Positions 58,116 through 60,737 of a stretch of DNA of 64,000 bases are shown piece after piece. Each line of letters opens with the position of its first letter. The stretch's first letter is position 1. The notes under the pieces were generated by a model. It did not search any database. It worked only from the letters and a program-made list of their open reading frames with translations, and was not told the origin of the DNA. The position numbers and the translations under genes were made by a program. Source of the stretch: an uncultured Sphingomonadales bacterium (lineage in GTDB: Bacteria; Pseudomonadota; Alphaproteobacteria; Sphingomonadales; Rhodothalassiaceae); contig CANMND010000002.1 of assembly GCA_947499155.1 (NCBI GenBank), positions 372,001-436,000 of the forward strand, given 5' to 3'.

Positions 58116-58547
58116 CTACTCTTGGTGGTCGAGCTTTGCCAGTTCCACTGCGGCCCGAAGCTCAATGTCGGAAAGAATGTCCTTAAGAGCCGGATCTTCA
58201 AAGCCGGTTTTACCCCGATTAACCAACTCTGCCAAACGCTCCAGCCTTGATCTGGGTATAGCGCCCAACAGCAGGCCTTTGCGTACATCGTCCAACAAAC
58301 TTAGCATATCATGTGCACGGGAAAGTCCTTTGGATCGCGCCCCTGCCCCGTCCGGCGCTTCTTGCAAGGACAACAATGCATCAACAGACGCAACGACACC
58401 CGTAGAGGCGACTTGTACGGGGCCAGATACTCCCGTTTCTGGCTGGTTCACTGCACTGGCAAAAGACGATGCTTTTCCCTTATCCGTTTTTTTGTCGGAT
58501 TTTCTCGTGGCAGATGGTGAACTGTTACCTGTACCGTATATACGCAT
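58116..58547 (-). CDS. fliX: flagellar assembly regulator FliX
   Basis: A 143-residue protein that in Caulobacter couples flagellum assembly to the activator FlbD. The N terminus MRIYGTGNSS and the conserved C-terminal half (RAHDMLSLLDDVRKGLLLG, then LERLAELVNRG) match the family. The start at 58547 has AAGGTG upstream. It is divergent from flgI, as in other alphaproteobacteria. Two tandem repeat sites lie between its start and the flgI promoter. Confidence 0.88.
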   Translation of the reverse strand: MRIYGTGNSSPSATRKSDKKTDKGKASSFASAVNQPETGVSGPVQVASTGVVASVDALLSLQEAPDGAGARSKGLSRAHDMLSLLDDVRKGLLLGAIPRSRLERLAELVNRGKTGFEDPALKDILSDIELRAAVELAKLDHQE

Positions 58548-58559
58548 AGTCGTGCACCT

Positions 58560-58600
58560 TACAGGATTTGCCCCCAAGACGTACAGGACTTGCCCCCCAA
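58560..58600. repeat. tandem sites upstream of fliX
   Basis: TACAGGATTTGCCCCCAA (58560-58577) and TACAGGACTTGCCCCCCAA (58582-58600) differ by one substitution and one added C. Their starts are 22 bp apart, two helical turns. They end about 80 bases before the sigma-54 promoter of flgI and begin 13 bases upstream of the fliX ATG. The spacing fits a pair of enhancer-binding-protein sites. Confidence 0.65.
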
Positions 58601-58681
58601 CTAGGAAAAATACTCCGAGTCAAAGACAATCCCTTGTCCCTGTATCCGTGAGATAGCCTGTGAAATCAAGTGTCTTGGTAT

Positions 58682-58698
58682 CTGGCATGTGGTTTGCA
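58682..58698 (+). promoter_or_regulatory. sigma-54 promoter of flgI
   Basis: CTGGCATG (58682-58689), four bases, TTGCA (58694-58698). GG at 58684-58685 and GC at 58696-58697 are separated by exactly ten bases, the rule for sigma-54. It lies about 70 bases before the flgI start. Confidence 0.75.
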
Positions 58699-58767
58699 TC
58701 GTAATTTGCAGTTCATGCTGCGAGTATAACCTGCACATGTCTGATGATGCTGATGAAAGTGGACGAC

Positions 58768-59925
58768 ATGCAAGACTTTGCCTTAGACGCCTTCCGATTT
58801 CGTATAAGTTCCAGACTGTTTGTGTTTGGACTTTTGGTGGTGGTCTTGTGCTTTATTACCACCCAGCCTGCCATGTCCAATTCCCGGCTAAAGGACCTGG
58901 TCAATGTGGAAGGCGTGCGGGAAAATCAGCTTGTCGGCTACGGCCTGGTCGTTGGTTTGAACGGAACGGGTGATACCCTGCGGAATGCACCTTTCACCCA
59001 GCAAAGCCTTCAGGCCATGCTTGAGCGTCTTGGCGTCAATACCCGCGATGCCCGCAATATCAAAACCGATAATATCGCTGCTGTGATTGTTACTGCCGAT
59101 CTTCCTGCTTTCGCGCGTCAGGGAAACAGGATTGATATTCAGGTCAGCACCATGGGCGATGCCAAAGACCTGCGAGGCGGTGTCTTGATGGTAACGCCGC
59201 TTCTTGGTGCTGATGGCGAAGTCTATGCCGTCGCACAAGGTCCCATTGCGGTCGCAGGTTTTGCCGCATCCGGCTCGGCGGCCAGTATTACAAGAGGTGT
59301 ACCGACCGCTGGCCGCATTGCCAATGGTGCCATCGTTGAACGCGAAGTGCCCTTCACCTTCGCCTCGATGGATGAAGTTCATCTGTCCTTAAAGAACCCT
59401 GACTTTACAACGGCGCACCGGATTGCCAATGCCATCAACAATGCGGTTCCGGGTAATGTTGCACAGATGATTGATCCATCAACTGTGCTGATGAGACGTC
59501 CCGCAGGCTATGAAAAATCACTGCTTACCATGGTGACGTCCATCGAACACCTGATGGTCACCCCCGACTATCCTGCAAAGGTCGTGATTGACGATCGGTC
59601 CGGTATCATTGTCATGGGGGCCAATGTCAGGGTCAGCACTGTTGCCATCGCCCAGGGAAATCTGACCATCAGGATCAGCGAAACCCCCATGGTCTCGCAG
59701 CCATCACCTTTCTCTGACCAGGGCGAAACCGTCGTCGTTCCCCGTACCGATATTGAAGTGGATACAGATGACCAGAACCGCCTCGCCATTGTCCAGGATA
59801 GTGTCACGCTTCAGGATCTTGTGGATGGCCTCAACGCACTTGGCGTTGGTCCAAGGGACATGATTTCAATTCTTCAGGCTATCAAGGCTGCCGGTGCCTT
59901 GCAGGCTGAGATAGAGGTGATGTAA
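58768..59925 (+). CDS. flgI: flagellar P-ring protein FlgI
   Basis: Forms the periplasmic ring around the flagellar rod. A signal peptide covers about the first 37 residues (FVFGLLVVVLCFITTQPAMS), then RLKDLVNVEGVRENQLVGYGLVVGLNGTGD, the family opening block; RGGVLMVTPL and the C-terminal DLVDGLNALGVGPRDMISILQAI are typical. At 385 residues from the chosen ATG it is a usual length; ATGs 12 and 24 bases earlier are possible. It is first in a flgI-flgJ'-flgN-like operon and likely driven by sigma-54. Confidence 0.96.
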   Translation: MQDFALDAFRFRISSRLFVFGLLVVVLCFITTQPAMSNSRLKDLVNVEGVRENQLVGYGLVVGLNGTGDTLRNAPFTQQSLQAMLERLGVNTRDARNIKTDNIAAVIVTADLPAFARQGNRIDIQVSTMGDAKDLRGGVLMVTPLLGADGEVYAVAQGPIAVAGFAASGSAASITRGVPTAGRIANGAIVEREVPFTFASMDEVHLSLKNPDFTTAHRIANAINNAVPGNVAQMIDPSTVLMRRPAGYEKSLLTMVTSIEHLMVTPDYPAKVVIDDRSGIIVMGANVRVSTVAIAQGNLTIRISETPMVSQPSPFSDQGETVVVPRTDIEVDTDDQNRLAIVQDSVTLQDLVDGLNALGVGPRDMISILQAIKAAGALQAEIEVM

Positions 59926-60278
59926 TGCCCGCCATAACAGGACAAATCGGGGTTGACATGGCTGATTTCAGGAACGCGAGCGTTTCTGCCGCCACTAACC
60001 GCCTTGAATCCGCCCGCCAAGGAATACTCGCAAGCCGGACCGGAGAAGATCGCGCAACCAGAGAAGCCGCCGAAAGCTTCGAAGCCGTATTTCTTGGTCA
60101 GATGCTGGCACCAATGTTTGAAGGCATTGCTACTGACGGCCCTTTTGGTGGTGGTCATGCGGAAGAAATATATCGCTCCATGATGGTGGACGAATTGGGA
60201 TCAACGATTGCCAAAAATGGTGGCGTTGGCATTGCCGACGCCATCTATGATCATCTTCTCAGACTCCAGGAGATTTAG
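59925..60278 (+). CDS. rod-binding protein (FlgJ N-terminal type, CheL-like)
   Basis: A 117-residue protein equal to the rod-capping N-terminal domain of FlgJ, without the muramidase domain. AAESFEAVFLGQMLAPMFE and EEIYRSMMVDELGSTIAKNGGVGIADAI are the family core. It starts in the stop of flgI (TAATG overlap), so translation is coupled. In Caulobacter a gene of this type in this position is called cheL. A separate enzyme must cut peptidoglycan for rod passage. Confidence 0.9.
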   Translation: MPAITGQIGVDMADFRNASVSAATNRLESARQGILASRTGEDRATREAAESFEAVFLGQMLAPMFEGIATDGPFGGGHAEEIYRSMMVDELGSTIAKNGGVGIADAIYDHLLRLQEI

Positions 60279-60281
60279 GCC

Positions 60282-60737
60282 ATGACTACAGCACAAATAA
60301 CAACAGCCATGCCGCCGCCAGTACAGACGTTTCTGGACCTGACACGAGCGCTTACATCCTTGTTGTCGGAAGAAAATCAACTTTTAAAAAATCGGAGACC
60401 AGCCGAGACATCTGCCCTTGCAAGGGAAAAAGTACGCCTGACGAACGAATACCGACAGGCCCTTGAAACATTAAAGGCGGATGAGGAGACCTTACTAGGT
60501 GCGCGAGATTCCGATCTCAGAAAGACAGTACACGAAACCACAGAACTATTTCGGCTGGAACTTGCCCATCACGCAAAGCTCGTAATCCGACTGAAAACAA
60601 TCACTGAAGGTGTGGTAAAATCCATATCCGACGAAGTGGCTCGCCAGCGCAATCCCATGCAGCATTACAGCCACACCGGCCAGATGGCGACAAAAGGGGC
60701 GCAACCCGCAACATTAAGTTTTGATCAAATGATCTGA
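60282..60737 (+). CDS. FlgN-like flagellar chaperone (FlbY-like)
   Basis: A 151-residue helical protein three bases after the FlgJ-like gene. A long coiled-coil (about residues 15-115) contains FLDLTRALTSLLSEENQLLKNR, as in FlgN-type export chaperones, which hold hook-filament junction proteins. In Caulobacter the third gene of this operon is flbY, and I infer equivalence from position. Its last 24 bases overlap the convergent ppx gene. Confidence 0.75.
   Translation: MTTAQITTAMPPPVQTFLDLTRALTSLLSEENQLLKNRRPAETSALAREKVRLTNEYRQALETLKADEETLLGARDSDLRKTVHETTELFRLELAHHAKLVIRLKTITEGVVKSISDEVARQRNPMQHYSHTGQMATKGAQPATLSFDQMI

Follow-up and report, generated by a model that had tools for sequence, protein, structure and literature searches.

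The locus examined here lies in a 64 kb stretch of DNA, referred to as the window, from a relative of Iodidimonas whose 2.8 Mb genome is assembled in 25 contigs. An intergenic region separates the divergently oriented flagellar genes fliX and flgI, and carries a sigma-54 promoter element facing flgI together with three palindromic sites closer to fliX (Table 1). The fliX start was placed at the ATG at position 58547 on the minus strand, where an N-terminal M-R/K-I motif conserved in 26 aligned homologues opens; since the motif begins there, a TTG at 58577 was rejected as the start codon. For flgI, an ATG at 58768 provides an alternative start. The flgJ-like gene is probably co-transcribed with flgI. 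It is followed by a small ORF on the forward strand (60282-60737), which occupies the position of a FlgN-like chaperone gene and has no Pfam or NCBIfam match.

Table 1. Genes and candidate regulatory features of the fliX-flgI region, in window coordinates.
Feature	Position	Strand	Details
fliX	58116..58547 (stop codon included)	-	Flagellar assembly regulator, partner of FlbD; PF10768, 112.7 bits (cut-off 25)
FlbD-like site 1, TTACAGGATTTGCCC	58559..58573		Matrix score 5.7, p=1.0e-3 per position
FlbD-like site 2, GTACAGGACTTGCCC	58581..58595		Matrix score 7.8, p=4.0e-4
FlbD-like site 3, AGGAAAAATACTCCG	58603..58617		Matrix score 6.5, p=7.5e-4
Sigma-54 (-24/-12) promoter of flgI, TGGCATGTGGTTTGCA	58683..58698	+	11/12 consensus positions
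flgI	58744..59925	+	P-ring protein; PF02119, 470.2 bits
flgJ-like	59925..60278	+	Rod-binding; PF10135, 54.7 bits; overlaps flgI stop

The promoter element, TGGCATGTGGTTTGCA, reads TGGCATG-N4-TTGCA, with the GG (58684-58685) and GC (58696-58697) dinucleotides separated by N10. It is the best sigma-54 element in the 64 kb window and the only one of 11/12 quality on either strand. Searches with a FliX protein alignment as query identified 110 fliX loci, of which 96 possess a divergent flgI, representing 82 distinct regions. A sigma-54 element matching at least 9/12 positions was present in all 82 of these, and one matching at least 10/12 in 79, a level reached by 0.8% of shuffled sequences. The first-pass annotation had proposed a sigma-54 promoter with exact GG-N10-GC spacing facing flgI, and both the quality of the match and its universal occurrence across the 82 regions bear this out. 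An exact-match search of the intergenic region for the IHF consensus WATCAANNNNTTR, which does not reach degenerate sites, returned no match; an IHF site between enhancer and promoter is not required by every promoter of this type.

Upstream of the promoter, two nearly identical tandem sites 22 bp apart had been described as abutting the fliX start. This pair is real: the repeats TACAGGATTTGCCCCC (58560-58575) and TACAGGACTTGCCCCC (58582-58597) are 94% identical and lie 22 bp apart start to start, while the best pair of 19-mers in the intergenic region, identical at 16/19 positions, was matched by none of 300 shuffles. Both repeats correspond to diverged copies of the palindrome CGGCAA-N3-TTGCCG, the final consensus of a palindromic 15-bp matrix seeded with GGCAA-N3-TTGCC (spotted by eye in relatives) and refined on relatives' regions with the window excluded from training. 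The palindrome is one derived from relatives' regions, and not from a FlbD footprint or the Caulobacter ftr consensus. Scoring the window's intergenic region with this matrix placed the three top positions at 58559, 58581 and 58603, in exact steps of 22 bp and with the fourth far lower, adding to the pair a third, more diverged site (58603-58617) that had been overlooked. None of 50,000 shuffles produced an equally spaced triple, and nowhere else in the window does one occur. Individually the sites are weak, as matches scoring 5.7 occur approximately twice per kb, and their scores of 5.7-7.8 compare with at least 17 at the flagellin gene; the left arms of the repeats (TACAGG) also depart from the consensus CGGCAA. 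With respect to fliX, the array adjoins the start region, but its first site begins 12 bp from the ATG, beside a likely Shine-Dalgarno sequence (AAGG).

Of the 80 regions scanned, 63 contained at least two sites at p<0.002 per position. For 43 of 56 relatives the best site pair had a spacing of 20-24 bp, and in relatives the tandem palindromes precede the sigma-54 element by a median of 81 bp. In position, sites 2 and 3 of the window match the site pair of Iodidimonas muriae and of many Kordiimonas, site 2 corresponding to the fliX-proximal and site 3 to the promoter-proximal member; site 1, adjoining the fliX start, is extra relative to this arrangement. Lack of conservation of the repeats had been named beforehand as an outcome that would count against the proposal. 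This did not hold, as the class of palindrome has been kept in position and spacing, with the window copies having drifted.

The genome also encodes the expected regulators, including RpoN and a FlbD that scores 795.8 bits against the NF050807 equivalog model (cut-off 750), with flbD neighbours read by eye as fliN, a motA-like gene and flhA. FliX is present in 40 of 60 relatives, and by hand count it co-occurs with FlbD (38 genomes with both, 18 with neither, and 2 + 2 mixed; Fisher p=3.6e-11, a value that is indicative only because related genomes are not independent). One complete relative (G024; L153, G024:C1:1022899-1026315) retains fliX, a divergent flgI, the sigma-54 element and the FlbD-like sites, while a FlbD above the curated cut-off is absent (best match 343 bits vs 750). 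Given that the sites are kept there without an over-threshold FlbD, a different activator may have taken over in this species.

Other sigma-54 elements of the genome were located by pattern, and the palindrome matrix was applied at these. Three palindromes scoring 17.3-17.6 were found at the sigma-54 promoter of the flagellin gene, and one scoring 17.4 at that of a flgF-type gene. At flgK (L122, G000:C1:89903 region), two sites (12.7 and 11.1) lie downstream of the sigma-54 element and before the start codon. When one mismatch was allowed, single genome-wide matches to the palindrome fell mostly within genes, and these were not counted as targets. The occurrence of the palindrome at the flagellin, flgF and flgK promoters ties it to the flagellar sigma-54 regulon and, by association, would assign the sites to FlbD.

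We also examined how fliX itself may be transcribed. In 22 of the 82 regions, the fliX strand carries a TTGC(T/C)-type -35, a spacer of 17 or 18 bp and a TA...T -10 located 6 or 7 bp from the ATG, a count that compares with a null mean of 1.1 and a maximum of 4. These 22 regions belong to Kordiimonadales or Iodidimonas relatives, and include two near-duplicates (L021 and L022). In most of them the -35 forms one arm of a FlbD palindrome, e.g. CGGCAAGTCTTGCTC. With the -35 positioned within the palindrome and the -10 only 6-7 bp from the ATG, fliX transcripts in these regions are probably leaderless, and competition between FlbD and polymerase is predicted; the overlap favours FlbD acting there as a repressor of fliX. 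In the window, a fliX promoter of the Kordiimonas type is not recognisable (score 2.0 vs a shuffled mean of 2.2, and 13.5-22.7 in three relatives), nor was a generic sigma-70 promoter seen for fliX or a sigma-54 element found for it on the minus strand. A CtrA box (TTAA-N7-TTAA) is likewise missing from the window's intergenic region even at two mismatches; boxes with at most one mismatch occur in 30 of 80 regions, against a null of 9.8.

Taken together, the sigma-54 element, the phased palindromes, the presence of genes for RpoN, FliX and FlbD, and the recurrence of the palindrome at other flagellar promoters point to a FlbD enhancer cluster that drives flgI as the most likely identity of the fliX-flgI region. 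In Caulobacter, FlbD acts on class III flagellar genes as an activator and on those of class II as a repressor, under the control of FliX, which contacts it directly (PMC3096577, PMC3930126); FlgI is also listed among the proteins dependent on RpoN and FlbD (PMC6180460). In the scheme proposed here, FliX would switch FlbD depending on whether an early basal body is in place, and FlbD would bind two to three palindromes of the CGGCAA-N3-TTGCCG type, two helical turns apart. The resulting oligomer would contact RpoN polymerase at the -24/-12 element, approximately 73 bp from the nearest site centre, and so start transcription of flgI and the genes behind it. Less certainly, because the sites cover the fliX start region, bound FlbD might also lower transcription of fliX. 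We place the probability of this explanation as a whole, with FliX-switched activation of flgI and a less secure lowering of fliX, at roughly 80%.

The two halves of the explanation differ in their footing. The first-pass annotation envisaged a single regulator activating flgI and repressing fliX. Its activating half agrees with the universal sigma-54 element, the tandem palindromes and the encoded FlbD, RpoN and FliX. Its repressing half finds a counterpart in the 22 relatives' regions with a palindrome over the -35, but not in the window, where the fliX promoter is not recognised. The architecture thus argues well for a joint activate-and-repress arrangement in relatives and weakly in the window. 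As the window's fliX promoter is unrecognisable, repression of fliX by FlbD in this species is a conjecture, and with an extra site in the promoter's place, any repressive contact that has been kept must differ from that of its relatives. A more specific scenario, which we advance tentatively and consider on balance doubtful, is that in Kordiimonadales and Iodidimonas relatives one palindrome serves as both flgI enhancer and leaderless fliX -35, such that FlbD shuts off its own partner on turning on flgI, and that in the window species this shared element has been broken and replaced by a third FlbD site, rewiring the loop.

A simpler possibility is that the cluster activates flgI only, its nearness to fliX being incidental and fliX being constitutive or under another regulator. 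Consistent with this, the window shows no fliX promoter overlapping the sites, and many more distant genomes have theirs at least 100 bp from fliX. Such a view leaves unaccommodated the fliX -35 located inside a site in 22 relatives' regions, as well as the repression of early genes by FlbD in Caulobacter (PMC3096577); we judge its chances to be only somewhat short of even. The array might instead be decaying in this lineage, comprising weakened ancestral sites and a chance tandem duplication with reduced control of flgI. Site 2 scores 7.8 where its Iodidimonas muriae counterpart, the fliX-proximal site, reaches 16.2, and a recognisable fliX -35/-10 has been lost, as decay would have it; set against these are an intact sigma-54 element (11/12) and three sites, not two, in perfect 22-bp phase, making this reading unlikely. 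Still less probable is that the repeats bind another enhancer-binding protein or a repressor: the TACAGG left arms differ from the consensus and the genome encodes seven strong sigma-54 activation domains, with at least six sigma-54 activators besides FlbD, but sites 2 and 3 occupy the positions of full consensus palindromes in relatives, and the same consensus marks the genome's flagellin and flgF promoters.

A FlbD cluster at this locus would represent an expected instance of a known Caulobacter-type switch, locally rearranged; the refinements added here are a third site, a spacing rule and, for relatives, the -35 overlap. Caulobacter crescentus has its own divergent fliX-flgI region among the class III promoters controlled by FlbD and FliX through ftr elements. 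Reportedly, a 1998 study described this divergent region and the CtrA dependence of fliX, and Caulobacter fliX is counted among the CtrA-dependent class II genes. The window shares with the C. crescentus class III system the RpoN promoter, encoded FlbD and FliX and tandem upstream sites, as well as the divergent fliX-flgI order and the placement of the P-ring gene in the FlbD/RpoN class. Unlike C. crescentus, it has three sites, phased at exactly 22 bp and degenerate in their left arms, and its intergenic region lacks the CtrA box searched for, whereas Caulobacter class II genes are CtrA-dependent. A further likeness exists with fliF, an early Caulobacter gene repressed by FlbD from the ftr4 site at its promoter, in that relatives carry a palindrome over an early-gene (fliX) promoter; here, however, the target would be FlbD's own partner, and the overlap is not recognisable in the window. 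Divergent fla2 regions of Rhodobacter sphaeroides also serve two flagellar units from one short region, but are CtrA-controlled, and those species reportedly lack FlbD (PMC6180460).

Most work on the FlbD/FliX assembly checkpoint has been done in Caulobacter; these findings would extend it, together with an explicit model of the sites, to Iodidimonas and Kordiimonas relatives. If correct, the same base pairs would serve both to activate a later gene and to repress the partner of its activator, providing a testable case, with the window species as a natural variant in which this sharing is no longer recognisable.

The survey of sigma-54 elements yielded further observations. At the flagellin gene (L126, G000:C2:244518 region), the near-consensus palindromes start at -156, -123 and -105 from the -24 element, i.e. 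upstream. Another element (L130, G000:C4:231629) separates a sigma-54 activator gene from one that by eye resembles pspA, an arrangement like that of a phage-shock operon. Also identified was a small diguanylate cyclase gene (L134, G000:C6:190341 region; GGDEF, 133.6 bits) with a sigma-54 element and upstream palindromes scoring 12.0 and 10.7. The homologues of four same-family relatives (L163, L164, L165 and L166) likewise combine a sigma-54 element (10/12) with upstream FlbD-like sites; in three of these four, a pair of good sites is spaced at 19-21 bp. The pattern points to FlbD control of a c-di-GMP enzyme in Iodidimonadaceae.
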